Source: a virus. From it: DNA of 46,009 bases. Where the stretch lies: the IMG/VR virus record IMGVR_UViG_3300010885_071259, positions 1 to 46,009 of that record; one strand, 5' to 3'. Positions 3,093 to 45,339 of the stretch are shown here, piece after piece (position 1 is the first letter of the stretch; every line of letters starts with the position of its first letter). The notes beneath the pieces were generated by a model that did not search any database, was not told the origin of the DNA, and saw only the letters and a list, made by a program, of their open reading frames with translations. The position numbers and the translations under genes are program-made.

Positions 3093-3098
3093 CGATAT

Positions 3099-3106
3099 TA
3101 TTTATG
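3099..3106 (-). promoter_or_regulatory. putative late promoter box (CATAAATA)
   Basis: CATAAATA on the minus strand 6 bases before the ATG of the fibre-like gene; a one-base variant of the T4 late box at the same close spacing seen elsewhere in the window. Confidence 0.4.
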
Positions 3107-3127
3107 TTAAAATATACGGATACAACT

Positions 3128-6940: not shown

Positions 6941-6994
6941 TCACTAACTATAGTCACCATTGATTTTATTGCTTTAAAAAATAAAAATATTAGT

Positions 6995-7990: not shown

Positions 7991-7991
7991 T

Positions 7992-9547: not shown

Positions 9548-10395
9548 TTATAGATTTCAGTAAATTACGTGTACCGCCTTTATACCCGACATATCCTCCA
9601 TATCATCTTGGGGATTATATCGAGGAATATTTTTATGGTTTCTATAAACGAAATAAAGCCGAATTTGACGAAACAGGCTATACACTAATACCCATATTTT
9701 GGACGAGTGTATATATAACAAATATAAATAGAAATCTTATTCAGCCTTATATTGATGCGCTACCTATAGGAAAATACTTTACTGTATCACAGCACGATGA
9801 TGCCGTTACCGAGCGACTACCAGAAGATACAATACGATTTGAAGCAGGCGGTAACCGAGACGGTATACCGATACCCCTGATCTGCTCGCCTCTCCGCGAT
9901 GAACATCTAGAGCCAAGAGAGAAAGACATATTATGCTCTTTCGTTGGCTCAGCTAATACAGAGTTCCGTAATGAGCTGTGTAGAATGTATGCAAACGACG
10001 CTGATGTCTATCTCTCATCACAAGAATGGAGATATGACGTTCAGCGTGATAGATTTGAAATATTCCTAGATATTACAAAAAGATCGCATTTTACTTTGTG
10101 TCCGAGAGGGTACGGTGCACAAAGCTTCAGGCTTTATGAAGCCATGCAGTTAGGCTCAATACCGGTTTTTATCTATGATAAGGAATGGTTTCCGTTTTCT
10201 AGCAAAATCGATTGGTCAGAATTTTGCGTTCTTATTCATGTAGACGAGATATCAAACTTAAAGCAAATATTAAGAGCCATCGATAGTAGCAAGCAAGAAC
10301 AAATGCTCGTGCGAGGTAGAGAGATTTATAAGGAATATTTCACACGCGAGAACCTCTGTAAACATATTTTAGCTCACTTAAAAGAACAGAAATGA
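9544..10395 (+). CDS. exostosin-like (GT47) glycosyltransferase
   Basis: A 283-residue protein with the clearest exostosin signature in the block: ILCSFVGSANTEFRN, then HFTLCPRGYGAQSFRLYEAM directly followed by QLGSIPVFIYD. The N-terminal PPLYPTYPPYHLGDYIEEYF looks like an acceptor-side segment. There is no signal peptide or transmembrane helix, so it is probably cytoplasmic. It overlaps both flanking genes by ATGA. It is a distant paralogue of 5382-6287; the low similarity outside the signature suggests different linkages. Confidence 0.7.
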   Translation: MIIDFSKLRVPPLYPTYPPYHLGDYIEEYFYGFYKRNKAEFDETGYTLIPIFWTSVYITNINRNLIQPYIDALPIGKYFTVSQHDDAVTERLPEDTIRFEAGGNRDGIPIPLICSPLRDEHLEPREKDILCSFVGSANTEFRNELCRMYANDADVYLSSQEWRYDVQRDRFEIFLDITKRSHFTLCPRGYGAQSFRLYEAMQLGSIPVFIYDKEWFPFSSKIDWSEFCVLIHVDEISNLKQILRAIDSSKQEQMLVRGREIYKEYFTRENLCKHILAHLKEQK

Positions 10396-11189
10396 ATTAC
10401 TTACTAACACATATTAATTCCCCGCTACCACAGCATTTACTCCATTGCCTTCGTCAGATAATTTTTACTGACCCGGAGAGTAAAATAACTCTTTGTACTG
10501 ACACAAGCGTAAAGTTTGACGATAGCAGAGTCGAGGTAGTACATTATAAGGATCTCTCGATACCGGAGACCGGCGATTACTACCGCAATGAAGTTGATCC
10601 TCTTTGGTTATCATCTCTACTACGTATTTTTATTATTAATTCTTACTTAAAAGCAACTAAGAAGGACATTGTACATTTCGATAACGACGTTCTTCTTCTT
10701 AAGAACCCTACAGCAATAGTCGACGGACTTGACTGTAATGTATACATGACGCAACAGACCGATAACACGTTTATTTTTGGCTTTAGTATAATAAAAAATA
10801 TCGAGAAGTTTGATCAAATAAGCAATAGCATTTACAATAATGTTATAAAAGGACTGCCATATATTCTCTCACAAACCGGAGACCACGGTCATGAGATGAG
10901 ATTACTCTATCACTACGGCAGGGAATATATAACAAATCTACCCACTCATCCAACACAAGGTACTATAAGCAATATTATCTTTGACCCTATTACGTATGGT
11001 CAATTTTTAGGAGGTACAAACAACGGTCACACGCCAGGATTTATCGATAAAGATCATATCGTTGGTAAGATACTGGATCCTGAATCAATCAAATTTCATG
11101 AAAACAAACCTACCGTTAACGGTGTAGAGTTAGTTAACCTACACGTGCATGGTAAGTGCTTGGAAAGATTTACTACGTATGATAAATGA
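10392..11189 (+). CDS. putative glycosyltransferase (DxD type)
   Basis: A 265-residue protein with DIVHFDNDVLLLKNP around residues 94-108, a DxD motif in the context seen in GT32/GT-A proteins, preceded by a conserved LSSLLRIFII segment where these enzymes bind the nucleotide. The C-terminus contains VNLHVHGK, a likely metal-coordinating histidine motif. The family cannot be fixed by eye. It overlaps the preceding gene by ATGA and the next by 11 bases. Confidence 0.5.
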   Translation: MNYLLTHINSPLPQHLLHCLRQIIFTDPESKITLCTDTSVKFDDSRVEVVHYKDLSIPETGDYYRNEVDPLWLSSLLRIFIINSYLKATKKDIVHFDNDVLLLKNPTAIVDGLDCNVYMTQQTDNTFIFGFSIIKNIEKFDQISNSIYNNVIKGLPYILSQTGDHGHEMRLLYHYGREYITNLPTHPTQGTISNIIFDPITYGQFLGGTNNGHTPGFIDKDHIVGKILDPESIKFHENKPTVNGVELVNLHVHGKCLERFTTYDK

Positions 11190-11868
11190 CAAATATTGTG
11201 TTGTATCTTTTGCAAAAGGTCATAATTTCGAACGCGGCCTACATAGACTCGAACAACAGTGTCAGCAATTGAATATACCTTTTCTTGGTTTTACAGAATA
11301 TCCGACCGGTTGCCCTACACATCAAGAATCACCGTTTGCATTTAAGTTTTTTTGTATACAAGATGCTCTTAAAAAAGAATTTAAAAATATACTTTGGCTC
11401 GATACTAGTGTTATTATTAAAAGACCTATCGATGATATTTTTAATCATATAGACACAAAGGGGTATTTTTTCATTTATAATCATGATCTAGGCTCTTTCT
11501 GCCATGATAAAGCCTTAGCAACGCTTAATATAACAAGAGAAGAATCATTTAATATACCCTGCATGCAAGGTACTAATTTTGGATTAAATTTTAATAATAA
11601 ACTAATAGAAATATTCTTTAACGAGATGCTAACGCTCGCCACTGACGGCATAACGTTCCCAGGCCCTCACAATAATATAAACTTTAAAGCATCAAAAGAT
11701 AAACGCGTTAAAGGACACCGACACGATCAAATAGCTATGTCAGCAATAGCGGTAAAATACGGGCTGACTGATTGGTTATATACAGGTGAAACACCGTGGT
11801 TTACGCATGATAGAAACTTTGTTAAGGACGTAGAAAGTACGGTAGAAGATAATAATATGTCGTTATGA
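11179..11868 (+). CDS. putative glycosyltransferase-like protein
   Basis: About 229 residues when started at the ATG at 11179 (MINDKYCVVSFAKG). An upstream ATG at 11149 would overlap the preceding gene by 41 bases and adds residues that do not look conserved. NILWLDTSVIIKRP matches the DxD-like acidic centre of capsule-type glycosyltransferases, although the aspartates are spaced as LDTS rather than DxD. HRHDQIAMSAIAVKYGL resembles the catalytic C-terminal motif of such enzymes. It overlaps the next gene by ATGA. Donor and acceptor unknown. Confidence 0.5.
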   Translation: MINDKYCVVSFAKGHNFERGLHRLEQQCQQLNIPFLGFTEYPTGCPTHQESPFAFKFFCIQDALKKEFKNILWLDTSVIIKRPIDDIFNHIDTKGYFFIYNHDLGSFCHDKALATLNITREESFNIPCMQGTNFGLNFNNKLIEIFFNEMLTLATDGITFPGPHNNINFKASKDKRVKGHRHDQIAMSAIAVKYGLTDWLYTGETPWFTHDRNFVKDVESTVEDNNMSL

Positions 11869-12710
11869 ATTACTATTGGGAGGAACAGGAAATTATAACC
11901 GGTGATAATTTAGAATCACTTAGTGACTGTATATTTGATATAGGTAACTATATTAACGGCGACCACGGTCGTCAGAAAACAGTTAAGAGAGAGCAAGATT
12001 TAATTGATGAGCAGATAGCAAATATTAACTTTTTAAAACCAAAAACCCTCTATTGCTACGGACATGATATAGAGAGATTATCTTATAATATAGATAAAAT
12101 ACAATTACCATTTACTTTAATAACGCATAACTCTGATATAGGTATAAAAGAAGAATATAAACCACTAGCCGATAATAAGAAAATAATAAAATGGTTTGGT
12201 CAAAATAATTCCTTAATACATTCAAAAACAATATCGCTTCCAATTGGAATAGCGAGAAAAAAATACTCTCACGGCAATACTGCGTTATTATCGTTGTTGT
12301 CAAAAAATTATAAAAAAAAGAATCTAGTGTATAAGAACTTCTCCATTGACACAAATATTAACGAGAGAAGCATTATAAATCAAATTACAACACAAAACGG
12401 TATCTATATGTCTGACAAATGCGACCAATATCAGTATTTACAGAATATATCAGAAGCAGTATTTGTAATATCACCGCCTGGCAACGGCATTGACTGTCAC
12501 CGTATATGGGAGTGTTTATATCTTAAGTCAATTCCTATTGTACAGTATCATCATACTTTCGAGCAGTTTAAACATTTACCAATCTTGTTCATTGATTCCT
12601 GGAATGATGTAACGCGGGATTATCTTATTGATCAATTACATCTCACCACAAAAATAGCAGATAAAAATGAACTGTTAAATTTTAATTACTGGAAAAAGCT
12701 AATTCTGTAA
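11865..12710 (+). CDS. exostosin-related glycosyltransferase
   Basis: A 281-residue protein. FVISPPGNGIDCHRIWECL followed by YLKSIPIVQY matches the C-terminal donor-binding segment of exostosin-like enzymes, with a cysteine and histidine in place of the usual serine/phenylalanine. The N-terminal half (ITHNSDIGIKEEYKP, SLPIGIARK) is typical of the same group. The gene is notably A-rich and has a 16-base gap before the FkbM gene, so the ATGA chain ends here. Substrate unknown. Confidence 0.55.
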   Translation: MNYYWEEQEIITGDNLESLSDCIFDIGNYINGDHGRQKTVKREQDLIDEQIANINFLKPKTLYCYGHDIERLSYNIDKIQLPFTLITHNSDIGIKEEYKPLADNKKIIKWFGQNNSLIHSKTISLPIGIARKKYSHGNTALLSLLSKNYKKKNLVYKNFSIDTNINERSIINQITTQNGIYMSDKCDQYQYLQNISEAVFVISPPGNGIDCHRIWECLYLKSIPIVQYHHTFEQFKHLPILFIDSWNDVTRDYLIDQLHLTTKIADKNELLNFNYWKKLIL

Positions 12711-12726
12711 CATATATTATAATAAC

Positions 12727-13287
12727 ATGATTGACGTTATAATTGATTGCGGTGCAAATTTAGGACAAGGATACGAGCGATTAATTGATAGCTTCGCTCT
12801 TACACCGAGACTTGTTTATATGTTTGATATTTTACCTGAAGCGTGCGGTTTTCTCGAAAACAAATACCCAAACGCTTTTGTATATAATAAAGGCGTTTGG
12901 TGCGAGGATATTAAAAAAACAGTTAAGCGTGAAAAAGCAAAGATTAATAGCATTGAAAATGTCGGTCATGAAAGTAATATTCTTGGGGATATACATAATA
13001 AAACATCTTCTGGTGCGCACCATGACTGGGACAGTTACGAAATTGAATATATTAATTTCTCAAACTTTCTTAAAACAAATTTTAAATCGACAGATAAGAT
13101 ATTACTTAAACTTGATATTGAAGGTGCAGAATATGAAGTAATGGATAAACTGATCAGTGACGGAACAATCTGTCTTATTGATAGCTTACACATAGAATGG
13201 CATCCGCATCTACGCACAGACTCACCGAATGATATATCCTATTACGAAACTATATTTAATATTAATAACATTAATATACTAAATTAA
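12727..13287 (+). CDS. FkbM-family SAM-dependent methyltransferase
   Basis: A 186-residue methyltransferase. IIDCGANLGQGYE (residues 5-17) is the SAM-binding motif I of the FkbM family, and LLKLDIEGAEYEVMDKL (about residues 124-140) is the FkbM signature. FkbM enzymes often O-methylate sugars, which fits its position among glycosyltransferases. It seems short at the C-terminus compared with many relatives. A paralogue lies at 14895-15509; the two share the fold and motifs but diverge elsewhere. Confidence 0.75.
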   Translation: MIDVIIDCGANLGQGYERLIDSFALTPRLVYMFDILPEACGFLENKYPNAFVYNKGVWCEDIKKTVKREKAKINSIENVGHESNILGDIHNKTSSGAHHDWDSYEIEYINFSNFLKTNFKSTDKILLKLDIEGAEYEVMDKLISDGTICLIDSLHIEWHPHLRTDSPNDISYYETIFNINNINILN

Positions 13288-13291
13288 CTAT

Positions 13292-14125
13292 ATGAAAAAA
13301 ATATTCGTAACATTTGTTAATTATAATAGCGATTACAATACGCAAGAAGATAGAGACAGGTATGTACTTTTTAAAAAATATAATTCCGAGCGTAATAGAT
13401 TATATTGTGAAAAACACGGTATGGAATATTTTGAAGTTGATGAGTCGGTATATAAAATACCTCATCTTTTTTCTATTCCTAGTATACCGGAGTTTACAGT
13501 AAAGAATAATAACCATTTCGCCAGATGGCAGTTCTTTAAAGATAAGATCGATAGTGGCTATCTACAGGACGGTGATATTATCTATCATCACGATGCTGAT
13601 GTGTTTATCGTACAGACAGATAAAGTGATGCCGTCAAATAAAACCTTTACATACGCCATCGATACAGCCAACTCACACTGCTTTGGCGCGTTTGCTCTTG
13701 TAGTTAATGAATTTAGCAGAAAGCTTATTGATTTAATGCTAAGTAGAGAGCGTTTCGAAAAATTACAGCATGTAAAATTTTTTAAGGAAAACGACGGTGG
13801 TCATGTGTTCTTTTACTGGGGTGATCAGCAAGCATATTACATAGCTGCAGGTATCAAATGCCATAGCTGGCAACCTTTTTATCAACTACCGAATAACGGT
13901 TTCTTTACATACCCTACCGAATACGCGGCATTCACCTTAGATGAGATTCTCGCTAATATAGAAATTCTCCCTGTTGAATGGAATGTAACTCACATTGTGG
14001 AAGAACAAGGTCCTAGTGAATATTGGATCAATCCATCGGAAAGAAAGGACACGATTTTTAGACATTTTGCGGGTGGTCAGAAGTGGAACTTCGAGCAGTA
14101 CTCGAAAGAATTTCCATTTAGTTGA
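13292..14125 (+). CDS. putative glycosyltransferase (DxD type)
   Basis: A 277-residue protein starting KKIFVTFVNYNSDY, with DIIYHHDADVFIV (about residues 95-107) as the DxD metal site and FYWGDQQAYYIAAG as a probable substrate-binding helix. The closing IFRHFAGGQKWN includes a histidine in the position that binds metal or phosphate in GT34-like folds. It sits 4 bases after the FkbM gene and 3 bases before the next glycosyltransferase, so it is part of the same transcription unit. Family assignment is tentative. Confidence 0.5.
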   Translation: MKKIFVTFVNYNSDYNTQEDRDRYVLFKKYNSERNRLYCEKHGMEYFEVDESVYKIPHLFSIPSIPEFTVKNNNHFARWQFFKDKIDSGYLQDGDIIYHHDADVFIVQTDKVMPSNKTFTYAIDTANSHCFGAFALVVNEFSRKLIDLMLSRERFEKLQHVKFFKENDGGHVFFYWGDQQAYYIAAGIKCHSWQPFYQLPNNGFFTYPTEYAAFTLDEILANIEILPVEWNVTHIVEEQGPSEYWINPSERKDTIFRHFAGGQKWNFEQYSKEFPFS

Positions 14126-14128
14126 GAT

Positions 14129-14890
14129 ATGTCAAATATTTGTGTTACACTTCTAACAAACGAAGCTTATTTCGATAAAATGCTATACACCCTAAACGGT
14201 GTGTTGCATTTCGGATATACAGATGATATTTGCATCGTAATAGGTGATGATTTACTTGGCTCTGAAAAGCTTAATCACCCGCTACTACGGTCGAACAATA
14301 TTACAATTAAACACTTCCCTGATATAGCGTTCTCTGAAGAGTTTCTAACTAAATTTAACTCTATTAATCGCGACGAGCATTGGAGAGAGAAAACGTTTCA
14401 GTATCACAAGCTGCATCTTTTTAATACATTCTTTAAAAAATGGGAATATATATTCTATATTGACTCCGGTATTACAGTTTTCAGGCCCATAGATCCTATC
14501 ATAAAAGCAAGAAAGCCAGGTAAGCTCTTAGCTCACTCCGATGCTTTCCCTGAGTATACCTGGAAGCTAAAGACGCAATTTATAGCAGAAGACGAAACAT
14601 TTTCGAAAATATACGACAAATATAACCTCGAAATCGATTACCCACAAACAACAATTATGCTCTACGATTCAGCCATTATAGATGATAATACCTACAATGA
14701 TCTATACAACTTAGCTGAAGAAGTGAAAATAAGTAAGACAAACGATCAGGGTATAATAGCTTTATACTTTGCAAGCGTAAAAAATATCTGGGAGCAAATT
14801 CAACTTGGTGATGAGAATACATGGTACTATGACTACGCGTTGCGACCAGGTAAACTAAATAAACCACATATAATGCTTAAAGCTATCTAA
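14129..14890 (+). CDS. putative glycosyltransferase
   Basis: A 253-residue protein with YIFYIDSGITVFRPI (about residues 109-123), a variant of the acidic metal-binding centre of GT-A enzymes where the second aspartate is replaced by serine/glycine. The N-terminus NICVTLLTNEAYFDKML and the segment KTNDQGIIALYFA follow the layout of LPS-type glycosyltransferases. If the metal site is truly altered it may be metal independent or inactive. It is tightly spaced with its neighbours. Substrate unknown. Confidence 0.45.
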   Translation: MSNICVTLLTNEAYFDKMLYTLNGVLHFGYTDDICIVIGDDLLGSEKLNHPLLRSNNITIKHFPDIAFSEEFLTKFNSINRDEHWREKTFQYHKLHLFNTFFKKWEYIFYIDSGITVFRPIDPIIKARKPGKLLAHSDAFPEYTWKLKTQFIAEDETFSKIYDKYNLEIDYPQTTIMLYDSAIIDDNTYNDLYNLAEEVKISKTNDQGIIALYFASVKNIWEQIQLGDENTWYYDYALRPGKLNKPHIMLKAI

Positions 14891-14894
14891 TTTT

Positions 14895-15509
14895 ATGAAA
14901 AACGTTTTTATAGATTGTGGTACCCACTTTGGTGAAGGACTACACGAATTCGAAAAGGTATTAAAATTTGATCCCTCAAACTGGGAGATTTTTACTTTTG
15001 AAGCTAACCCGGATACATATCAGACATTTTTAGCTAAAAACCCAGATCTTATTACACGTTATAATATTAAGCATTTTAATAAAGCTGTATACGATCATGA
15101 AGGTACTATAACATTTCATCAACAAACGAACCCAGATTGGAATGAACCGAAAATGGGAGGAGGCTCATCACTTATGCCTCTTGATCGCTGGAACCCACAC
15201 AACGGTACTAAACGCGGTCACTTCATTACATCCGTCGCTGTTGAATGTTTTAATTTATCTGACTTTATAAGACAGTTTAAAGGTAGAGATATCTTTATAA
15301 AGCTCGATATCGAAGGCGCGGAATTTGCTGTTTTAGAAAAAATGATAGATGATAGGTCTATAGATCTCGTTAAAACTATATATATCGAATTTCACGACAG
15401 CGCTGACTTTTTTGAAGAATCATACGTTGAAGTATATAAGCAGAAAAAGGACCGCATTACAAAATACTGCCTTGACCACGGTATTGAACTCGTAACGTGG
15501 TGGATCTAA
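14895..15509 (+). CDS. FkbM-family SAM-dependent methyltransferase (second copy)
   Basis: A 204-residue methyltransferase with FIDCGTHFGEGLHEF (motif I), EIFTFEANPDTYQTF (motif II acidic loop) and IFIKLDIEGAEFAVLEKM as the FkbM signature. It is longer and more complete than the copy at 12727-13287 and carries a Gly-rich insert (KMGGGSSLMPLDRW). A probable role is methylation of the glycan made by the surrounding enzymes. The 4-base gap after the glycosyltransferase and the 9-base gap before the next gene point to one operon. Confidence 0.78.
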   Translation: MKNVFIDCGTHFGEGLHEFEKVLKFDPSNWEIFTFEANPDTYQTFLAKNPDLITRYNIKHFNKAVYDHEGTITFHQQTNPDWNEPKMGGGSSLMPLDRWNPHNGTKRGHFITSVAVECFNLSDFIRQFKGRDIFIKLDIEGAEFAVLEKMIDDRSIDLVKTIYIEFHDSADFFEESYVEVYKQKKDRITKYCLDHGIELVTWWI

Positions 15510-15518
15510 ATTATTACA

Positions 15519-16214
15519 ATGAAAAATCTATTATTTATAACCGGACACCGTCACGTTGAACAGGTGCAACTGTATGCTGAATTCTTGAAAAGAACGTCGC
15601 TTGTCAAGGATTTCGATCTTGTCCTGCATATGAATAATCTAGATTCTGATATTCAATCTATAAGAGATAATTTTAAGTTAATGCCGAACAGTAATAAGCA
15701 TTTGATACTAACTGATCGAAATTGCGAGCACTACGGTTGCATTCAGGCACTTAGTGATTTCTATGACTACTTTAAAGGATACGATAATGTCGTACACGCT
15801 CATATCGACGTATTTGTTGCTAATGAGCATGATTTAATTGATAAGATTACTAGTCATACGGATAAAGCGTTTCTCGTTAATCATTCATTTAAGGGTATTG
15901 ATGATTGGATGAGTACAGATCTTTTTATTTTTAGGCCCAAACTCATTGATATTAATATTTTTAAAGATTGGACGAAGCATGCAGGCGTACCATTAGGTGG
16001 TATAAAGATTGGATCATGTTGTGAAACTTTTGAGTGTCGACATGTCGGTCCATGCCCGGAACAATTTTTACACTGGCAGGTAAAAAAGAATAATCTATCG
16101 TATGAGTATATTAAACGCTTTGATACCGATCATTGGGACCCGAGGCGTGTTTGTATGTGGGGTTGTTATCACGAGCACGATTTAGACAAAGCTAAACAGC
16201 TTCTCGGTATTTGA
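15519..16214 (+). CDS. last gene of the sugar block, glycosyltransferase-like
   Basis: A 231-residue protein of uncertain family. Features are an N-terminal LLFITGHRHVEQVQLYAEFL, a VVHAHIDVFVANEHD segment that could be a degenerate DxD centre, and a cysteine-rich region (GSCCETFECRHVGPCPE, about residues 167-183) that may form disulfides or bind metal. The final part (DTDHWDPRRVCMWGCYH) is rich in tryptophan, cysteine and histidine. Position and general layout suggest a sugar-related role, but this is inference from context. Confidence 0.4.
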   Translation: MKNLLFITGHRHVEQVQLYAEFLKRTSLVKDFDLVLHMNNLDSDIQSIRDNFKLMPNSNKHLILTDRNCEHYGCIQALSDFYDYFKGYDNVVHAHIDVFVANEHDLIDKITSHTDKAFLVNHSFKGIDDWMSTDLFIFRPKLIDINIFKDWTKHAGVPLGGIKIGSCCETFECRHVGPCPEQFLHWQVKKNNLSYEYIKRFDTDHWDPRRVCMWGCYHEHDLDKAKQLLGI

Positions 16215-20919: not shown

Positions 20920-22680
20920 ATGGTTGATCAAAATAGAGAGAGTACATTTGGAAGAGAGTTGATGCGGTACGTGTCATCTAAATTACCATATCAATCATAT
21001 GATATTAATGACAAGATTAACGCGCTTAATCCAAAATATGAGCTTTTTTATAATAAAGGCTCCGATAGAATTGGCGCACTAACACGACAATCGGTATCAT
21101 CATCGATATCAACAACAGAGGATCAATATGCTAACATACTTCGTAATAAAGACTATCACGAATTTATGTACGCTAATATTCAGCCAGATAAAGGTCGTAG
21201 ACTCATGGATTATAGAGTCATGGCTGCGTACTCTGAAGTTGCAGATGCTCTGGATGAAATATGTGATGAATTTATAAACAAAGATGAGAACAGTGAAATC
21301 GTAAAGATACATTTTATCGACTCCGGTCTATCTGAAATACAGAAAAATAAAATTCGAAAAGAATTCCAAAAATATATTAGTTTTTTTGATCTTGAAAATA
21401 AAGGTTGGGAGTATATCCGACAGTTGCTCGTTGATGCAGAAATATACTGGGAGCACATTATTCATAAAAAGCACCCTCAAGAAGGCGTGCTTGGTGTTAT
21501 ATCTGTACCATCGGATATTATAGACCCGGTTTTTGAGAACGTACAAAATATGGTCGTAAAGGGTTATATTTTACGCAAACCAATTTACGATGCTAAGAAT
21601 CCAGGCAAAGTTGCAAAGACGGAATTAATTCCAATGGATATTAATCAGATAACCTATATTAACTCTGGTATCTGGAATGAATCAAAAAACCTTCGTCTAC
21701 CTTTTATAGAAAATGCACGTCGTGCGTATAGACAGCTAAGTCTTATCGAGGATGCAATTGTTATCTATCGTCTTGTACGTGCTCCAGAGCGACTTGTATT
21801 TAATGTAGACGTTGGATCAATGGCACCTCCGAAAGCAGAAGCATATCTTAGAAAACTAATGACCAATTACTGGTCAAAACGTACATATGATGCTGATCAA
21901 GGTGCAACTGTGCAGAAATTTAACCCGCAGTCGATGTTAGATTCTTTCTGGTTTGCTAAACGCGCTGGTTCAGAGGGTACATCGGTTACTCAGTTAGCAG
22001 GTGGCGCTAATCTTGGTGAATTAACTGATTTAATGTATTTTGTAAAGAAATTATATAAATCACTCAAGGTACCATCAACACGTCTTAACCCTGAAGACCC
22101 ATATAAAGACGGTGCTGATATTCTTCGTGAGGAATTAAAGTTTGCTCGTTTTGTTGTTAGACAGCAGCAGCGTTTTGCTGCCGGTCTTAAGAACGGGTTC
22201 ATAACACATCTCAAGCTAAAAAATATCTTTCAGGAGATGCGATTAAAGGAGCAGCATTTATCTCTCACCTTTAACGTACCTACAAATTTCTACGAGCTCA
22301 GAGAACAACAACGATTCCAACTTAAAGCCGAAAACTTCAATAGTATTACTCAAAGTGATTTTGTATCAAAGACATACGCTCAGAAGCGTTACCTCGGTTG
22401 GTCCGACTCTGATGTTATGGCAAATCGCGAATTCTTACGCAAAGATAGAGAGCTTATGTGGGAGCTTGACCAGATCACTAATACAGGTCCTGACTGGAGA
22501 GAGGCTGGTAGCTTAGCAGGTGGTGCGTCAGGAGGCGGAGGTGGTGGCGGTACACCTGCAGGTTCACCGCCTGCATTTGGACCGGCTCCTACCGGGGGTG
22601 AAGAAGCTCCACCCGAAGCTACAACACCTGAAGCACCTGAAGTAGCTGCTCCAGCGGCAGCAGAGGCTCCTCCAGCTTAA
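20920..22680 (+). CDS. portal protein (gp20-like)
   Basis: A 586-residue portal, the dodecameric ring at the capsid vertex through which DNA passes. Conserved blocks include YRVMAAYSEVADALDEICDE near residue 92, LRLPFIENARRAYRQLSLIEDA, VIYRLVRAPERLVFNVDVG, MPPK-type SMAPPKAEAYLRKLM and KVPSTRLNPED, all in the T4 gp20 order. The last 60 residues are an unusual low-complexity Gly/Ala/Pro/Glu tail (GGASGGGGGGGTPAG onward), absent in T4 and probably flexible. AGTAAATA and GTTAAATA boxes (20888-20895, 20899-20906) lie upstream. Length is near the T4 value of 524 plus the tail. Confidence 0.88.
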   Translation: MVDQNRESTFGRELMRYVSSKLPYQSYDINDKINALNPKYELFYNKGSDRIGALTRQSVSSSISTTEDQYANILRNKDYHEFMYANIQPDKGRRLMDYRVMAAYSEVADALDEICDEFINKDENSEIVKIHFIDSGLSEIQKNKIRKEFQKYISFFDLENKGWEYIRQLLVDAEIYWEHIIHKKHPQEGVLGVISVPSDIIDPVFENVQNMVVKGYILRKPIYDAKNPGKVAKTELIPMDINQITYINSGIWNESKNLRLPFIENARRAYRQLSLIEDAIVIYRLVRAPERLVFNVDVGSMAPPKAEAYLRKLMTNYWSKRTYDADQGATVQKFNPQSMLDSFWFAKRAGSEGTSVTQLAGGANLGELTDLMYFVKKLYKSLKVPSTRLNPEDPYKDGADILREELKFARFVVRQQQRFAAGLKNGFITHLKLKNIFQEMRLKEQHLSLTFNVPTNFYELREQQRFQLKAENFNSITQSDFVSKTYAQKRYLGWSDSDVMANREFLRKDRELMWELDQITNTGPDWREAGSLAGGASGGGGGGGTPAGSPPAFGPAPTGGEEAPPEATTPEAPEVAAPAAAEAPPA

Positions 22681-24388: not shown

Positions 24389-25051
24389 ATGTCACTACGT
24401 CTATTAGTTGAAACACCCGCTGCTGAAGAACAGTTTGAATATATTGAAGAGCAGAGTAATCTTAAGGAAAAATCAAAACTTATTATTAAGGGACCGTATA
24501 TGGCGTGTGAGGAGATTAATAAGAATAAACGCATATACACAGAGAGTGATATGGAGCGTGAAATTAACCGCTATGTTAAAGAAATGGTTGAGACAAAGCG
24601 CGCTCTTGGTGAGTTGAATCATCCAGCCTCAGCTGAGGTTGATCTTGAGAGAGCGTGTCATATGGTTACATCTTTGCGTAAAGATGGTAATGTAATATAT
24701 GGTGAATCTGTCGTACTTACAACACCTGTCGGTCTTATTGTACGTTCGTTAATCAACGACGGTGTCCGAGTTGGTATGTCAAGTCGTGCACTCGGTCAAC
24801 TTGAAGAACAGGCTGATGGTATTAATCGTGTTTCTGAGATGAGACTAATTGCAGTTGACTGCGTTGCTGATCCTTCTTGTCCTAAGGCTTTCGTTAATGG
24901 TATCTTAGAATCAAAGCAATATGTTCTAAAGGAAAATGGTAAATTTGAAGAATTTTATGATATCTTTGAAGAGTCATTAAAGACATTACCGCGTAATGAT
25001 ATAGCAACTTTCTTAAAGGAACAGATCATTTCTTTCCTTGCTAAACTATAA
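24389..25051 (+). CDS. prohead protease (gp21-like, S80 family)
   Basis: A 220-residue serine protease that matures the prohead by cutting scaffold, capsid and internal proteins. GELNHPASAEVDL contains the catalytic histidine (H78), and VRVGMSSRALG the catalytic serine (S131/S132), as in T4 gp21. IIKGPYMACEEINKNKRIYT is the usual N-terminal region. Its T4 counterpart cuts after glutamate in (I/L/F)xE followed by Ala/Gly/Ser. Candidate sites of this kind occur in the scaffold, the capsid protein and the small internal-protein candidates at 41.7-44.4 kb. Confidence 0.9.
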   Translation: MSLRLLVETPAAEEQFEYIEEQSNLKEKSKLIIKGPYMACEEINKNKRIYTESDMEREINRYVKEMVETKRALGELNHPASAEVDLERACHMVTSLRKDGNVIYGESVVLTTPVGLIVRSLINDGVRVGMSSRALGQLEEQADGINRVSEMRLIAVDCVADPSCPKAFVNGILESKQYVLKENGKFEEFYDIFEESLKTLPRNDIATFLKEQIISFLAKL

Positions 25052-25404: not shown

Positions 25405-26289
25405 ATGCAAAAAAACATCTCCGATCTTCTTAAAGCAGCAACCAAGGACATCCTTACCGAGGACGTCCTCAAAGAAATTGAATCTGCGTTTGAAACATCA
25501 GTAAGTGATAAAGTTAATCTTCATGTTGAAAAGGCTCTTACAGAGCAAGACGAAGATTATGCTAACAAGCTTGAGACTCTTCTCGAAGCACTCGACACTG
25601 ATCATACAAATAAACTTAAAAAGGTTGTAGAGGCAATCGACACAGATCGTACAAACAAGCTTAAGGCTGTTATTAATAAATATGAAACAGCTCTTACAGA
25701 GGAAGCTGCAGAATTTAAAACCAACCTCATTGATCAAATCAGTGATTATTTAGAACTTTATCTTGAAGAAAAGCTTCCTACAGAAGCTATTCAAGAAGCT
25801 GTCAACAATAAGCGTGCCGCCAGCGTCCTTAACGACGTACGTAGTATGCTTTCTGTTGATATGGCTCTCGCAAATGAGAGTATTCGTGATGCCGTTATTG
25901 ACGGTAAAACGAAAATTGATGAAGCTGGCAAACAGCTTGAAGCTGCTAATAAGCAGGTTGTAAAATTGACAGAGCAACTAAACAAAGTCAGTGCTGAGCT
26001 CGTTCTTGAGAAGAAGGTCTCTCCTCTCGATGAAGAGAAGAAGGTCTACATGAAGAAGATGCTCAACAATAAATCTGCAAAATTTATTGCAGAAAACTTT
26101 GATTATACACTCGGTCTTTTTGAAAAATCTGAAGAAGAGCGGCTCAACAATCTTGTTACAGAGGCTGCAACAGAAACGATCGCTAGTACAGTAGATCGTC
26201 CTGTTCTTGAAGAATCCGTAGAAAGCTCCTCAAATGAGGATATGGATTCAGCATTTAATCTTTATCTCTCTGAGCTTAACAAGTACTAA
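25405..26289 (+). CDS. prohead scaffold protein (gp22-like)
   Basis: A 294-residue acidic, coiled-coil-rich protein directly upstream of the capsid gene, the position and composition of T4 gp22. Repeated units around residues 55-95 (LLEALDTDHTNKLKKVVEAIDTDR split as EALDTDHTNKL and EAIDTDRTNKL) show an internal duplication. Possible protease sites are ILTE, LPTE/A and LVTE/A. The C-terminal block, KKMLNNKSAKFIAENFDYTL, resembles the conserved end of gp22-type scaffolds. The protein forms the core around which the head assembles and is then degraded. Confidence 0.75.
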   Translation: MQKNISDLLKAATKDILTEDVLKEIESAFETSVSDKVNLHVEKALTEQDEDYANKLETLLEALDTDHTNKLKKVVEAIDTDRTNKLKAVINKYETALTEEAAEFKTNLIDQISDYLELYLEEKLPTEAIQEAVNNKRAASVLNDVRSMLSVDMALANESIRDAVIDGKTKIDEAGKQLEAANKQVVKLTEQLNKVSAELVLEKKVSPLDEEKKVYMKKMLNNKSAKFIAENFDYTLGLFEKSEEERLNNLVTEAATETIASTVDRPVLEESVESSSNEDMDSAFNLYLSELNKY

Positions 26290-26378: not shown

Positions 26379-27899
26379 ATGTCAAAATCAATCCGTCCTT
26401 CACAGTCTTACATCGATGAGAGAAGCGCAAAGACATTGCTTGAAAAGTGGGCTCCAGTATTGGACTACACATCAGGTAACGTTGCTGCAATTGAAGACGA
26501 CCATACACGCTTAAACACCGCTATCCTTCTTGAAAACCAAGAGAAGTGGTGCTTTGAGGCAAGTAATGCATCAGGTGGTACAGGTGGTGTTTTCAGTGGT
26601 GGGACAATTGGTGCCGGTAATTACGGTAACCAGTTCCCTTCACAGAACGACAACGCTTACGCTCCTAATGATGCTCGTCTTCCTAAGATCCTCATTCCGA
26701 TGATCAGACGTACATTCCCTGAGTTGATCACTAACGAAATCGTTGGTGTTCAGCCAATGAGTGGCCCAGTCGGTCTTGCTTTTGCTCTCCGTTATAAGTA
26801 CGAACCAACCAATCTTGGTTACCAGAGCCAGTCAACAGGCCTTGATGCATCGGGCACATCCCAATACGGCACAGGCAACGGCGCTCTCTCCGGTAATCCA
26901 TAATTAGGTTATCAATACCTCAACACAGCCTTTACCGGTGCTAGCTCAGTAGCTCTCTCCGGTCTTGGTGTAAATTCAGCATTCCCGATCGTCGATCAGG
27001 ATCGTGGTGTTGCAGCGCTTCTCAGCCAGTTTGAGTTAAGCAGCAATATTCCTCAGATCGTTGTCTCTTTCGAGAAGACAGCAGTTGAAGCCGGCACACG
27101 CCGTCTCGCAGCTCGCTGGTCCGTTGAACTTGAACAGGATCTTAAGAACATGAACGGTATCGATATCGATACTGAGCTCACAAACGCTATGTCGTATGAG
27201 CTTCAGGCCGAAATCGACCGCGAAATGATCATCCGTATGATCTAGACAGCTCTCAACGCCGGTTACGGCGCTGGGTACTCCATCTGGTCACCTGCTTCAG
27301 CAGACGGCCGCTGGCTCGTTGAGCGTAATCGTGACTTCTATCAGAGACTCATCATCGAGGCTAACCGTATTGCCGTACGTAACCGTCGTGGTGCAGCTAA
27401 CTTCATCGTTGGTACACCTCGCGTTTGCGCGATCCTTGAAATGCTCCCTGAGTTCCAGTGGGTACCCGTTCAAGGCTCTGTCAATACACAGCCAGTTGGT
27501 GTAGCAAAAGTAGGTTCCCTCGGTGGTCGCTTTAATGTATACCGTGACACACGTACAGAGGCCCAGTACGAAGCTAACTTCGGTGGTAACCTTGCAGGTA
27601 AGAGTGGTTTCCCAACCAACGTCAACCCGCAGGGTGCAACACGCACTGCTCGTCTCGACTACGCACTTCTCGGTTACAAGGGTCCTGAATTCTACGACAC
27701 CGGTATCATCTACTGCCCATACATCCCTGTTATGGTTCAGAGAACAATCGGTCCTAACGACTTCAGTCCTCGTGTTGGCTTACTCACCCGTTATGGTGTT
27801 GTTGATAATATCTTTGGTGCAAACCTCTATTATCACGTCATCATTCTCCAGGGTCTCGGTACAGCCTTCACACCGGCAACTCAGAGCGTTTACTTCTAA
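26379..27899 (+). CDS. major capsid protein (gp23-like) with in-frame TAA and TAG
   Basis: One frame of 507 codons, close to T4 gp23 (521 residues), broken by TAA at codon 175 (26901) and TAG at codon 289 (27243). Matching blocks: KTLLEKWAPVLD, ILLENQEKW, PMIRRTFPELITNEIVGVQPM and GPVGLAFALRYKY. After the first stop come LGYQYLNTAF and RWSVELEQDLKNMNGID. After the second come TALNAGYG, DFYQRLIIEANRIAV, and near the end LLGYKGPEFYDTGIIYCPY and GLLTRYGV. Both stops fall in otherwise perfect coding sequence with no shift. E60/A61 (WCFE-ASNAS) is a likely prohead protease site. GC content is higher than in neighbours, as expected for strong expression. Both stops are one base from Gln or Glu codons. 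Confidence 0.85.
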
Positions 27900-41037: not shown

Positions 41038-41304
41038 ATGATGTTTAACGATCTAATCAATTCTCTCTTAGAGGATTTTAATATCTATACTAAGTACCAG
41101 GGTGTTAATCAGAGCGGACCTGATGCAGGGTCAACATCTGTACAACCTCAGGATACTTTTCCAAGTAAAGTTAAAACAATCAGCGGTAAGATTTTACCTA
41201 GTAAAAAAGATATCCAACGGCTCAAGCGCTCGCATCGTCATATTCCCAAGGGAAAACAAGCCAGGTATCGTGATGATATTCGCGTAGATAGAAATCAGGG
41301 ATAA
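41038..41304 (+). CDS. small basic protein of unknown function
   Basis: An 88-residue protein. The N-terminal FNDLINSLLEDF is an amphipathic helix of the type seen at the start of many small T4-like virion proteins. The C-terminal half is strongly basic (KKDIQRLKRSHRHIPKGKQARYRDD), suggesting nucleic acid binding. Its 3' end overlaps the convergent phosphoribosyltransferase by 83 bases, so at least one of the two ends could be shorter in reality. A start at the second ATG (41041) is equally possible. Confidence 0.5.
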   Translation: MMFNDLINSLLEDFNIYTKYQGVNQSGPDAGSTSVQPQDTFPSKVKTISGKILPSKKDIQRLKRSHRHIPKGKQARYRDDIRVDRNQG

Positions 41305-41695
41305 AGGTAGTCTTGTCTTTAGTAAAGAGTGTTGCACTCCTTATCTCATCTTCAGGTAGGTCGTGCGCTAGTTTTTCCTTTATATAGCGTAACGTATGCC
41401 CGCTATCTGATAAGTCATCAACAATAAGAACTTTCTTACCCTTAGCATCAAAAATATCATAGCCAGTTGTCTGTATGACTCTAATCGTCTGCCTCATCTC
41501 ATCACTATAGCTCTGTACGGCAAAATTATAGATCTTCTTGACGTCTAGCTTATAAGCAAGCAGGGTAGCTGGAATTAACCCACCTCGCCCGACACCGACA
41601 ATAACATCAGGTATAAAATTAGTCTTTTGTAACTGGTCGGTAATCGATCTTATAGCAAAATAGATATCATGCCAGTGAATAGCGTGTTTGGGCAT
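41222..41695 (-). CDS. phosphoribosyltransferase (purine type I PRTase)
   Basis: A 157-residue type I phosphoribosyltransferase. DVIVGVGRGGLIPATLLAYKL is the N-terminal core, and KVLIVDDLSDSGHTLRYI (about residues 88-105) is the PRPP-binding signature. The layout and length match xanthine-guanine or hypoxanthine PRTases. It could salvage purines, or with the queue of deazaguanine genes supply or recycle guanine bases released by the DpdA-like enzyme; the latter is inference. No key residue is missing. Convergent overlap with the small basic protein. Confidence 0.8.
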   Translation of the reverse strand: MPKHAIHWHDIYFAIRSITDQLQKTNFIPDVIVGVGRGGLIPATLLAYKLDVKKIYNFAVQSYSDEMRQTIRVIQTTGYDIFDAKGKKVLIVDDLSDSGHTLRYIKEKLAHDLPEDEIRSATLFTKDKTTFIPDFYLREYHHDTWLVFPWEYDDASA

Positions 41696-41719: not shown

Positions 41720-42016
41720 TTAGATATCAAGCTTATATCCTTTTTGACGAAGAAGTTTACCGAGCTTTTTAAACTCAAACACCATACTATCGATGTTCCT
41801 AGCCTCTGCACACTTCACCATATTATGTACGTGCTTTAAGATGATAGAATTTTCCTCTGATTGTTCAGGCATATCCCCACGTACTATACCCTGGGATTGG
41901 GGACGGAAGGATTGATTTGGTGTACGAAACCCCCCTTCACTGTTAGTAACACTAGCTGCACCAACATCTTCACGCATAAGATAGGATTCATAGATTGAAT
42001 AAATATCCTTATTCAT
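41720..42016 (-). CDS. candidate head-targeted internal protein (CTS-like N-terminus)
   Basis: A 98-residue protein beginning MNKDIYSIYE-SYLMRE. Position 10 is Glu followed by a small residue, the same place where the T4 capsid-targeting sequence (MKTYQEFIAE-A) is cut by the prohead protease. Four other minus-strand genes nearby share the pattern. The body has a disordered, Gly/Gln/Ser-rich middle (GFRTPNQSFRPQSQG) and a helical end (IILKHVHNMVKCAEA). An ACTAAATA box lies 6 bases upstream (42023-42030). Function after delivery is unknown. Confidence 0.5.
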   Translation of the reverse strand: MNKDIYSIYESYLMREDVGAASVTNSEGGFRTPNQSFRPQSQGIVRGDMPEQSEENSIILKHVHNMVKCAEARNIDSMVFEFKKLGKLLRQKGYKLDI

Positions 42017-42022
42017 ATATAC

Positions 42023-42030
42023 TATTTAGT
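42023..42030 (-). promoter_or_regulatory. putative late promoter box (ACTAAATA)
   Basis: ACTAAATA on the minus strand 6 bases before the ATG of the gene at 41720-42016. Confidence 0.3.
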
Positions 42031-42034
42031 GTAA

Positions 42035-42298
42035 ATGGGCATAGAAGATTATATTAATGATGAAAAGGCTTTAAATAGGCGCTTGGAAGAAAGCTGGCGA
42101 TACTTTAAAATTTGTGATCTTTGTAACAGCCTTATAGAATATGATACCTGGGTGTGTTTAAATTGTAAAGGTTATCGATTTATAACTGATAGAGAATTAG
42201 TTATTGAAGCTTCAAAGAAAGTATATGAAAGATTTGTTAATTATCTTAAAGATAATGACTCACTACAATTTGGGTATAGCGATTTAGATGCTGACTGA
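42035..42298 (+). CDS. small zinc-ribbon protein
   Basis: An 87-residue protein with CDLC and CLNC (KICDLCNSLIEYDTWVCLNC, about residues 26-45), a compact zinc-ribbon. The region before it is helical and charged, and the end is acidic (FGYSDLDAD). Such ribbons occur in small phage transcription or DNA-repair factors. It is the only plus-strand gene in this part of the window and overlaps the convergent gene 42246-42452 by 53 bases. Confidence 0.55.
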   Translation: MGIEDYINDEKALNRRLEESWRYFKICDLCNSLIEYDTWVCLNCKGYRFITDRELVIEASKKVYERFVNYLKDNDSLQFGYSDLDAD

Positions 42299-42452
42299 GA
42301 AAAATAACTCGATCCATTAAGAGTTTTTTCTCCATTCCTTTGGCTTGTTTAGCTTTTGTGTAGAGGTCTAAAACCATATCTGATGTAATTAATACAGTTT
42401 CTTTGCGTTCGTTTTTATCTGAACCCTTTGTGTTTATCTTTGATGCAGCCAT
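42246..42452 (-). CDS. hypothetical small protein
   Basis: A 68-residue lysine-rich protein (MAASKINTKGSDKNERKE), probably helical in its second half (MVLDLYTKAKQAKGMEKKLLM). There is no late box next to its ATG and no recognised family. It overlaps the zinc-ribbon gene convergently by 53 bases, so coding status is less certain than for its neighbours. Confidence 0.4.
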   Translation of the reverse strand: MAASKINTKGSDKNERKETVLITSDMVLDLYTKAKQAKGMEKKLLMDRVIFLSQHLNRYTQIVVSHYL

Positions 42453-42517
42453 AGCAATAAGGTATTCCTTTTTTGTCGGATGGTTATTTTAAGCGTAATT
42501 TATATAATTACTAGCTT

Positions 42518-42817
42518 TTATTTTTTGTCTTGCTTATAAGCCTTATTGAGAGTTTTAATTACTCGATGAACGGCATCAGGACCTGAGCATATTGAATAGA
42601 TGAATTGCAAGACAACATGAGCCACGTGATCGGCTTTTCTTACCGTATCAATAGGACATAAACCTGATTCAAGTCTCAACCAGTCTTTAATTTGTGGTTT
42701 AGCTGTCTCTTGTTCGGCCTGATTAAGGGAAACAGCGACAGCTCCAGGTACTGGTGTTGTAGGTTTTTGTGGAATAGATGTATACGCTTCGGCAATATAG
42801 CGAGAATCCCTGATCAT
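42518..42817 (-). CDS. candidate head-targeted internal protein (CTS-like N-terminus)
   Basis: A 99-residue protein beginning MIRDSRYIAE-AYTSIP. Residues 7-11 (YIAE-A) nearly equal the T4 capsid-targeting cut site (FIAE-A), at the same distance from the start. After a Pro/Val-rich linker (PQKPTTPVPGAVAV) the rest is helical with two cysteines. An AATAAATA box (42823-42830) lies 5 bases before the ATG. Of the five candidates this has the best T4-like cut site. Confidence 0.55.
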   Translation of the reverse strand: MIRDSRYIAEAYTSIPQKPTTPVPGAVAVSLNQAEQETAKPQIKDWLRLESGLCPIDTVRKADHVAHVVLQFIYSICSGPDAVHRVIKTLNKAYKQDKK

Positions 42818-42822
42818 AATAA

Positions 42823-42830
42823 TATTTATT
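42823..42830 (-). promoter_or_regulatory. putative late promoter box (AATAAATA)
   Basis: AATAAATA on the minus strand, 5 bases before the ATG of 42518-42817. Confidence 0.4.
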
Positions 42831-42844
42831 AAAAGAGGGTTATA

Positions 42845-43018
42845 TTAAACAATTCCCATATCATCATCTTCATCACCATTATCATCTAGTTCATCCTCAC
42901 CGGTTTCATCTTCTACTGAACCCTCTTCGTCATCCTCTTCCTTATTATACTTCTTCTTGTTTTTCTTAAGAAGACTCTCTACGTAGAGATCGAACATTTT
43001 ATGACTATCCTTATGCAT
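42845..43018 (-). CDS. 57-residue acidic protein with CTS-like N-terminus
   Basis: A short gene easy to miss. It reads MHKDSHKMFD-LYVESL, then a lysine cluster (LLKKNKKKYNK), then a strongly acidic tail of Glu and Asp to MGIV. The N-terminus matches the shared pattern (DSH at 4-6, acidic residue at 10, Tyr at 12) of the other candidates, with Asp in place of Glu at position 10, so cleavage there is doubtful. A CATAAATA box (43024-43031) lies 5 bases upstream. The acidic tail could mimic DNA or bind basic proteins; that is inference. Confidence 0.6.
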   Translation of the reverse strand: MHKDSHKMFDLYVESLLKKNKKKYNKEEDDEEGSVEDETGEDELDDNGDEDDDMGIV

Positions 43019-43023
43019 AGTGA

Positions 43024-43031
43024 TATTTATG
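43024..43031 (-). promoter_or_regulatory. putative late promoter box (CATAAATA)
   Basis: CATAAATA on the minus strand 5 bases before the 57-residue gene and touching the first palindrome of the 43032-43150 array. Confidence 0.4.
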
Positions 43032-43150
43032 GTTCCAAAGGAACCCTTTATACGTAGTTCCGGTCAGGTTCCAAAGGAACCGTTCCAAAGGAACGGTATT
43101 CCTATCGATAAAACGTTCCTTAAATTAATACCGTTCCAAAGGAACGTTCC
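43032..43150. repeat. array of four GTTCCAAAGGAAC palindromes
   Basis: Perfect 13-bp palindromes (arms GTTCC/GGAAC, centre AAA) at 43032-43044, 43068-43080, 43082-43094 and 43133-43145. The third extends to a 19-bp palindrome (43079-43097), the first and second to 15 bp. A further GGAACGTTCC lies at 43141-43150. Neighbouring arms can pair in more than one way. The array is upstream of the 57-residue gene and downstream of 43339-43908, both on the minus strand. Confidence 0.95.
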
Positions 43151-43338
43151 TATTACCTTATTATCCTTATAAGACCCTTGGAGAATTAATAAAGCATTTT
43201 TTTCTAATATACCGTCCTAGACGCTAGAAACCGTAAGAGAACCCATTTTAAACACGTTCTCGCTATATGTCTTAAAGAGTAGACGTATAATACGTCTTTA
43301 TATCCATAATCACTTAAGGACACAGGGTAAAAAAATTA
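43151..43338. other. non-coding gap with a 17-bp palindrome
   Basis: Together with the palindrome array this makes a 320-base stretch (43019-43338) without a supported gene. The right part is AT-rich; the one clear structure is AGACGTATAATACGTCT at 43281-43297, an odd-centred palindrome. No tRNA, terminator T-run or clear promoter was seen. Confidence 0.6.
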
Positions 43339-43908
43339 TTAAAGACTAGGAGGTCTATTACCTTCCTCAGCTCCGTTATTCCAGACCGTCTGACACCATT
43401 GATGGAAGTCGTCTTCTGACCAAGCTCCTTGCTTCACTGCATGATAGGCATCCCAGAAAGAGTAGTTGTTAAAGGAGATATCTTTCTTAGCATCTTCATA
43501 CCCCTGAAGTTCACTCTCGTGTTGTTTATCATACTCTTCTTCGTTCTCCCCTCTTGCATTACGTTCTTTCATCTTTTCATACATTCTCTTTGTGTTAGCA
43601 AGATACACGGCAACCTCAGCAACAGTATGTTCTTTATATGGAAACCTCTGCTTTCCTATACCGATTCCATGATTGCTTATATCTTGATGGTCTTCGTAGA
43701 GTCCATTCTTAAGATCGTCATCTGATGTAGGCTTATATCGTTGAATTACTTCGGTGATGGTATCCTTAACATCTTGAACCGAACACGTGCTATTGATTCT
43801 CTCGAGAGCAGATTGTATTTCCTGATCTGAAGGTATATGCACGCCTACACCTCTCTCTGCTAACTCTCTCCTATAAGCTTCAAAGATAAGATGGGAGTCA
43901 ACATTCAT
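43339..43908 (-). CDS. candidate head-targeted internal protein (CTS-like N-terminus)
   Basis: A 189-residue protein beginning MNVDSHLIFE-AYRREL, nearly identical in its first 12 residues to the gene 5 bases upstream (MNNDSHLLFE-AYLRSR). The rest is hydrophilic, with a Glu/Lys-rich helix (MYEKMKERNARGENEEEYDKQ, residues about 115-135) and a tryptophan-rich end (WDAYHAVKQGAWSEDDFHQW). No catalytic motif is recognised. After predicted cleavage at residue 10 about 179 residues would stay in the head. Confidence 0.6.
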   Translation of the reverse strand: MNVDSHLIFEAYRRELAERGVGVHIPSDQEIQSALERINSTCSVQDVKDTITEVIQRYKPTSDDDLKNGLYEDHQDISNHGIGIGKQRFPYKEHTVAEVAVYLANTKRMYEKMKERNARGENEEEYDKQHESELQGYEDAKKDISFNNYSFWDAYHAVKQGAWSEDDFHQWCQTVWNNGAEEGNRPPSL

Positions 43909-43913
43909 ACCTA

Positions 43914-44408
43914 TTACTTTTCTTTCTTAAGAGCCTTAGCCTTAGCAGCACCGGCAATTCTCTCGGCCGCCTTCTTAGAGTAACCGGCCTTCTCGGCAGC
44001 TTTCTCTACTTTCTTAAAAACGTGCTTCTTTGTGTGCTTGGAAGCCTCGGTTACTGGTTCATGATCATCTTGATTTGCCTTACAATCTGGGCACCCATCA
44101 CAATCACACCCATCGTTGGCTGCTGCGCAGGATTGCTCATCCTGTTCATCTACCTTACCTGTAGCCTTAGATGCAGCCTTGTGGGCTTTGGTCTCATCAA
44201 ATTTATCACCATAGATCTTCTTCATATGATCGATGATAGCACTGTGGGTGGATTCAGGATTGCTATGTTTATGAGACTTAGCAACACCATGATATTCTTC
44301 TTGAGATGCCTCTTCGGTAGATGTGGATTGGATATGATCGGCCTCTGTAATGCCAAGATCGCGGGAGCGGAGATAGGCTTCGAAGAGAAGGTGGGAGTCG
44401 TTATTCAT
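43914..44408 (-). CDS. candidate head-targeted internal protein, Cys-cluster and basic tail
   Basis: A 164-residue protein beginning MNNDSHLLFE-AYLRSR. Further possible prohead protease sites are GITE-A (near residue 22) and PVTE-A (near 122). A cysteine cluster, CAAANDGCDCDGCPDC (about residues 93-108), probably binds metal. The C-terminus is a Lys/Ala helix (KKAAERIAGAAKAKALKKEK) like a histone-type DNA-binding tail. T4 internal proteins are also small, basic and processed. A perfect TATAAATA lies 8 bases upstream. Role unknown. Confidence 0.6.
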   Translation of the reverse strand: MNNDSHLLFEAYLRSRDLGITEADHIQSTSTEEASQEEYHGVAKSHKHSNPESTHSAIIDHMKKIYGDKFDETKAHKAASKATGKVDEQDEQSCAAANDGCDCDGCPDCKANQDDHEPVTEASKHTKKHVFKKVEKAAEKAGYSKKAAERIAGAAKAKALKKEK

Positions 44409-44416
44409 GTATAGAT

Positions 44417-44424
44417 TATTTATA
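44417..44424 (-). promoter_or_regulatory. putative T4-type late promoter box (TATAAATA)
   Basis: Perfect TATAAATA on the minus strand, 8 bases before the ATG of 43914-44408; probably drives both of the twin internal-protein genes. Confidence 0.5.
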
Positions 44425-45066: not shown

Positions 45067-45339
45067 TTAACCACCGGCAATGGCTGGCATGATTGAGATC
45101 TCATCAGATTCTTTGATAGTAGTGTGAATACCTTGAAGAAAACGAATATCTTCCCCGTTAACAAAGATATTAATAAAGTTTCTAATAGAACCATCATCAA
45201 AACACAGACGCTCTTTTATTCCAGGGTAATTTAACTCAAGATTGCTAATGAGCTCTAGAATTGTAGTAGCTGAAACAATAACACTATCTACATTATTGGT
45301 TAATTTTCTAAGAGGAACAGGAATGAGAATAGAAGGCAT
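45067..45339 (-). CDS. CysO/MoaD/ThiS-like sulfur carrier protein
   Basis: A 90-residue beta-grasp protein ending in ISIMPAIAGG. The C-terminal GG is the site that is adenylated and thiocarboxylated in ThiS, MoaD and CysO. The body matches actinobacterial CysO closely: ISNLELNYPGIKERL, RNFINIFVNGEDIRFLQG and then SDEISIMPAIAGG. In CysO systems the thiocarboxylate gives sulfur to cysteine synthase and a JAMM protease frees the product. No partner enzyme is visible in this window. A role in host sulfur supply, tRNA thiolation or virion assembly is possible. It lies just downstream of the 63-residue gene on the same strand. Confidence 0.85.
   Translation of the reverse strand: MPSILIPVPLRKLTNNVDSVIVSATTILELISNLELNYPGIKERLCFDDGSIRNFINIFVNGEDIRFLQGIHTTIKESDEISIMPAIAGG

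Follow-up and report, generated by a model that had tools for sequence, protein, structure and literature searches.

Why should five neighbouring phage genes encode small proteins that begin almost alike and then have nothing in common? The question is raised by positions 41720-44408 of the IMG/VR virus record IMGVR_UViG_3300010885_071259, a 46 kb record with T4-type head genes that was analysed over its whole length of 46,009 nucleotides (hereafter the window). The initial annotation regarded the common start as a capsid-targeting tag like that of the T4 internal proteins, and the locus as an island of cargo for the phage head. Sequence comparison strongly supports this claim through some 25 families of proteins behind the tag, the S77-type prohead protease of the carriers, the fit of the tag to the [L/I]-x-E cleavage rule, and late-type promoter boxes. 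The 12-residue start is very probably a capsid-targeting sequence, belonging to a T4-related group of phages that is as yet uncultured, in which the tagged proteins would be loaded into the head for delivery. What the sequences themselves show is the tag, its portability, selection at the peptide level, the T4-type head genes including S77, the late-type boxes and synteny.

Five proteins and their common start

All five open reading frames (ORFs) are found on the minus strand within 2.7 kb, as originally described. They have the start MxxDxxx[ILM]x[E/D][A/S/L]Y in common, after which the bodies are wholly different; BLAST among the five bodies gave no match, which bears out their description as otherwise unrelated. 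All five have D4 and Y12, with a hydrophobic residue at position 8 and an acidic one at position 10. ORF 1 (43914..44408) encodes 164 amino acids (aa), starts with MNNDSHLLFEAY and has a cysteine cluster and a basic helical C-terminal module. Its tag, residues 1-12, is encoded at 44373..44408 and is predicted from the [L/I]-x-E rule (PMC9026906) to be cut after E10, while a candidate second protease site, I20-T21-E22↓A23 (44343..44351), is suggested by the sequence and by the second-site statistics given below. ORF 2 (43339..43908; 189 aa; start MNVDSHLIFEAY) is the second gene in an operon with ORF 1, and its tag (43873..43908) was located by DNA pattern match, as were those of ORF 4 (42782..42817) and ORF 5 (41981..42016). 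The strongly acidic 57 aa product of ORF 3 (42845..43018; start MHKDSHKMFDLY) has an Asp10 variant of the tag, read from its sequence at 42983..43018. ORF 4 (42518..42817; 99 aa; start MIRDSRYIAEAY) is an island member kept in relatives, and ORF 5 (41720..42016; 98 aa; start MNKDIYSIYESY) adjoins it there too. From ORF 1 to ORF 5 the net charges are -3, -14, -14, +4 and +1.

The feature first singled out was an acidic residue 10 followed by Ala or Ser. Four of the five ORFs have [L/I]-x-E at residues 8-10 and then a small residue, ORF 3 having M-F-D and then L11. The match stands for those four, with the refinement that D4 and Y12 are equally diagnostic.

The search for further tagged starts proposed in the initial annotation was run on the window with a relaxed DNA pattern (MxxDxxx[hydrophobic]xE[A/S]Y). 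It gave exactly four matches, all in the five tagged genes (ORF 3, with D10-L11, is missed), and the backward pattern gave none. A strict pattern (MNxD, a small residue set at 5 and 8, then [F/Y or similar]EAY) matched 97 stretches in IMG/VR (viral_contigs), against one when the order of the codons was reversed. Three matches were obtained on 84,980 cellular genomes (257 Gb), and a tagged ORF of at least 45 aa begins at none of the three. Within 47 carrier contigs the relaxed pattern matched 75 times, 28 of them beyond the one match per contig due to selection, and its backward control gave none. The D4/Y12 pattern had no match in T4 and seven other cultured T4-like genomes, and tblastn with a 22-residue tag query gave no match, which is a weak test with a query so short.

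Altogether 113 tagged proteins were collected and clustered into about 25 unrelated body families (26 clusters minus one evident chance match, from L015). Weighted by family, D4 is found in 100%, I, L or M at residue 8 in essentially 100%, E10 in 95%, A11 in 80% (S in 11%) and Y12 in 91%, and conservation stops at position 12. These percentages describe the sharpness and portability of the tag and are not unbiased frequencies, because D4, an acidic residue 10 and the residue classes at 8, 11 and 12 were built into the selection. Nearly all homologues retrieved by their body alone also have a recognisable tag, in which E10, A11 or Y12 may vary; relatives of the ORF 4 body start MLRDSRHIAEAY, MLSDSRYIAEAY, MLRDSRIIAEIAY, MLKDSRYIADAY and MLRDARTIADLY, and those of the ORF 2 body MNKDIHLIFEAY, MNKDIHLLFEAY, MNQDTNYIFKAY and MHRDDTNLTNAY. 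D4 and the terminal Tyr are kept in some body-found homologues that have lost E10, and binding may therefore be the constant function and cutting optional. A few body matches have a different start (MSSQDFHRIDEVY), and one ORF in L031 is untagged at its first start codon, its annotated start being uncertain. The commonest tag carrier is a family of about 300 aa (L007:2273-3175 and 56 relatives), which has no match to a known family, to cultured phages or to a PDB fold.

Head genes, protease and late-type boxes

The presence of a gp21-like protease in the same phage, also claimed initially, is confirmed by a Peptidase_S77 gene at 24389..25051 on the plus strand (PF03420 E=7e-33; PHROG 207 E=1e-52). 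The same strand encodes the portal protein gp20 (20920..22680; PF07230 E=2e-103), a probable gp22-type scaffold or core protein between gp21 and gp23 (25405..26289; PHROG 237 E=0.015, PF25623 E=0.045), and the major capsid protein gp23 (26379-27899). The window's gp23 gene has two in-frame stops (26901-26903 and 27243-27245), unlike that of the relatives, which is intact; possible causes are an error of sequencing or assembly, readthrough or a defective genome. S77 was found in 18 of the 47 carrier contigs and in nine of the ten longer than 100 kb, and all 18 S77 contigs also have gp23. The same protease was matched in 2,499 of 50,697 phage-collection records, a rough comparison as the record sizes differ. 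Among the matches listed, the nearest capsid proteins from cultured phages are those of cyanophages, with an identity of only about 32%. Cultured relatives gave no DNA match, and at the protein level nothing in them matched ORF 1, a close relative of ORF 2 or the largest tagged family. Uncultivated Far-T4 phages have been described from lakes (PMC4360716), and the carrier group may lie near them.

The gp21 protease cuts after [L/I]-x-E (PMC9026906). The T4 leader MKTYQEFIAE, cited in the initial annotation, was read in the T4 record, where IPII and IPIII start MKTYQEFIAE↓A, and the longer leader of IPI would by the same rule end in ITE↓A. In the IPIII leader residues 4 and 7 mainly govern targeting and residues 8 and 10 processing, while Asp10 stops processing and leaves targeting intact (PMC9026906). 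The [I/L]8-x-E10↓A11 of the tag agrees both with the gp21 rule and with the position in the T4 leader. By this analogy, the constant D4, I/L8 and E10 as putative cutting residues, and the natural Asp10 versions are counterparts of the T4 leader logic. The product of ORF 3 has such an Asp10 variant, a form that recurs among the relatives, and is predicted to be targeted but uncut at residue 10; the early suggestion that it might be packaged yet not cut is sound, as Asp10 in T4 blocks processing only.

The tag resembles the T4 capsid-targeting sequence in being a 10-residue N-terminal leader in which residue 8 is hydrophobic and Glu10 precedes Ala, in being shared by unrelated small proteins, in occurring together with S77, a gp23 head and late-type boxes, and in having an Asp10 form compatible with targeting. 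It differs in its sequence (MNxDSxLIFE↓AY against MKTYQEFIAE), in the diagnostic D4 and Y12, in the many more families that carry it and in their often acidic bodies. The propeptides found on head and ejection proteins of phiKZ and SPN3US are similar in that a Glu-specific prohead protease, a distant gp21 relative, trims many packaged proteins (PMC9026906), but these phages, compared by literature only, belong to another lineage and have another cleavage motif.

In the largest family 56 of 57 members have a second L/I/V-x-E site, at residues 18-22 and with variable spacing. Elsewhere L/I/V-x-E-[A/G/S] at residues 13-30 is found in 4.2 of the 24 other families against 1.1 expected (p=0.006), and over residues 13-42 the family-weighted counts are not significant. 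Because only the range 13-30 is significant, the case for a second site owes something to the range chosen and most to the largest family. A further candidate site, C-F-E60↓A61, was located in the major capsid protein (26550..26561, plus strand) by alignment of relatives, in which FE↓A, ME↓A, IGE↓A, INE↓G, VNE↓A or LRE↓A comes after ENQExWC, so that the site has the form [I/L/V]xE↓[A/G] or CxE↓A. It is a candidate of the same type as the tag site, and would presumably be used.

Late promoters have the sequence TATAAATA in T4 and NATAAATA in cyanophages (PMC2984593). On the minus strand of the window a late-promoter-like box, ATAAATA, is found 8 nucleotides (nt) before the ATG of ORF 1 (44417..44423; a consensus match only), and 5 nt before those of ORF 3 (43024..43030) and ORF 4 (42823..42829), while CTAAATA lies 6 nt before that of ORF 5 (42023..42029). 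ORF 2, directly behind ORF 1, may need no box of its own. Among the carriers 87 of 112 tagged starts have [A/C/T]TAAATA no more than 40 nt away, usually at a distance of 5-11 nt, compared with 12.5 in shuffles and with 55 of 516 other ORFs. In the head-and-tail region of the window it also precedes four plus-strand genes, one of them the S77 gene. Since the box is so close to the start codon, both in the window and in relatives, late messages may be nearly leaderless. About a dozen plus-strand genes at 3086-16214 resemble, as read from sequence only, glycosyltransferases, a sugar epimerase and methyltransferases; of the 19 genes in the sugar-transfer stretch that were tested for the box, only one has it, and farther from the start.

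Probable targeting and its alternatives

Conserved starts on neighbouring genes could simply be inherited, one ancestor having been duplicated and the bodies having diverged behind an N-terminus with no special role. The genes are adjacent and some bodies share modules, but some 25 families lack similarity past residue 12, and an S-adenosylmethionine (AdoMet) decarboxylase in a relative has a tag-like start. In addition, the peptide has been kept by selection while the codons vary. Paralogy is rejected on account of the unrelated families and the codon variation, and is very improbable. It is scarcely credible that the stretch is instead a DNA or RNA signal, such as a late promoter or a translation start context, read as protein, even with a conserved box 5-11 nt before the start. 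Synonymous codons differ at every conserved residue of the tag (GAT/GAC, GAA/GAG, four Ala codons, TAT/TAC), so that synonymous positions vary freely, and operon-internal genes are tagged without a box. Codon choice thus varies within the tag, which argues that it is the peptide and not the DNA that is conserved and selected, and a nucleic acid signal as the main explanation is refuted by this variation.

A more serious alternative, though still an unlikely one, is that the tag docks on another part of the virion or on an intracellular phage structure, the [L/I]-x-E motif being incidental and no cutting taking place. It would account for D4 and Y12 being about as constant as the cleavage residues and for the loss of Glu10 in some homologues, and in the model of ORF 2 described below the predicted helix runs through residue 18. 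However, family-weighted values of 95% for E10 and about 91% for A or S at residue 11 are hard to explain without a protease, the second L/I/V-x-E site is almost invariant in the largest family, and T4 has a leader of the same layout.

If capsid targeting is the function, the five genes would be expressed late, and the tag, which is probably a short, Asp4-capped helix, would dock its protein on the scaffold core while the prohead is growing. Next, the S77 (gp21-type) protease would cut after Glu10, and some proteins might be cut again at a second [L/I/V]-x-E site about ten residues further on. The freed protein would stay in the head and leave with the DNA on ejection. Docking, cutting, packaging with retention in the head, and injection are in this scheme proposed by analogy. 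Over time the island would take up exchanged bodies behind the constant tag.

Several points weigh against this scheme. The family count hangs on the BLAST threshold, and some families may have been lumped or divided by it. In some homologues selected by their bodies E10 has given way to another residue (IFKAY, LTNAY, IADLY), and cutting at residue 10 is therefore not universal, while Y12 lies beyond the cut position and is superfluous in the T4 model. Three of the five ORFs have a negative net charge, and the T4 internal proteins are basic. The profile match of the scaffold is weak, and for the carrier group no virion proteomics and no cultured relative were found.

The island and its putative cargo

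Pfam gave no match for the five bodies and PHROG no significant one, and family, defence and fold searches assigned no function to any of them. PADLOC over 43 tagged proteins gave weak, scattered matches only. An AlphaFold2 model of ORF 2 from its single sequence has a mean predicted local distance difference test (pLDDT) score of 68 and a helix at residues 5-18, and a model of the largest tagged family from 30 sequences has a mean pLDDT of 71; a PDB fold search with both gave no match at E<=0.001. The five ORFs are not filed as homologues of T4 IPI, IPII or IPIII, because Pfam had no match for them and PHROG no significant one. Two of these T4 proteins affect host range, IPI as an inhibitor of the GmrSD restriction enzyme and IPIII as a requirement for growth on E. 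coli ECOR17 (PMC3012670, PMC9391042). By analogy, some of the cargo here may act against first-line defence.

The island is flanked by two untagged minus-strand genes. On the left lies a gene for a ThiS/MoaD-like protein of 90 aa ending in GG (45067..45339; named from sequence), and on the right a phosphoribosyltransferase gene (41222..41695; PF00156 E=2e-23). The phosphoribosyltransferase is found at the same flank in L190, L226 and L228, and a ThiS-like homologue at the same flank in L190. There, on a stretch from a 193 kb contig, the same two flanks enclose a different set of tagged genes, which includes relatives of ORFs 2, 4 and probably 5. The set also encodes an AdoMet decarboxylase (L190:1011-1463, plus strand; PF02675 E=7e-16) with the tag-like start MNKDIELLNEAY, the only scanned tagged protein with a clear enzyme family; if packaged, it might affect methyl-donor-dependent restriction or polyamines. 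Relatives of ORF 4 and ORF 5 stand side by side on at least six further contigs, and the bodies can be mosaic, modules of ORF 1 and ORF 2 being joined in one L182 protein. Fixed flanks, differing tagged sets and mosaic bodies make the locus read as an exchangeable cargo site, and the best reading of these sequences is a variable cargo island in which bodies are exchanged behind a constant tag.

The internal-protein loci of T-even phages similarly combine a constant leader with exchangeable bodies, which are thought to follow host defence systems (PMC3012670, PMC9026906). Unlike them, the present locus is compact, has a ThiS-like gene and a phosphoribosyltransferase gene as its fixed flanks, and contains up to about seven tagged genes. 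More tentatively, delivery may be modular throughout the group, with a single tag, of a more elaborate kind than the T4 leader, sending dozens of unrelated proteins, including the L190 AdoMet decarboxylase, to the heads. Uncut (Asp10), once-cut and twice-cut forms might then set whether and how a cargo is released, and the island might be a capture site for new cargo. A readable tag allows proteins that travel inside the virion to be predicted from sequence, and gives a catalogue of candidates for injected effectors and anti-defence proteins, almost none of which has a known function, in phages that have never been grown. Its natural variants test what targeting and cutting each need, and it is a possible second label for loading foreign proteins into phage heads.

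A small zinc-ribbon-like protein is encoded on the opposite strand within the island (42035-42298, plus strand), and a likely relative is found at the matching place in L190.

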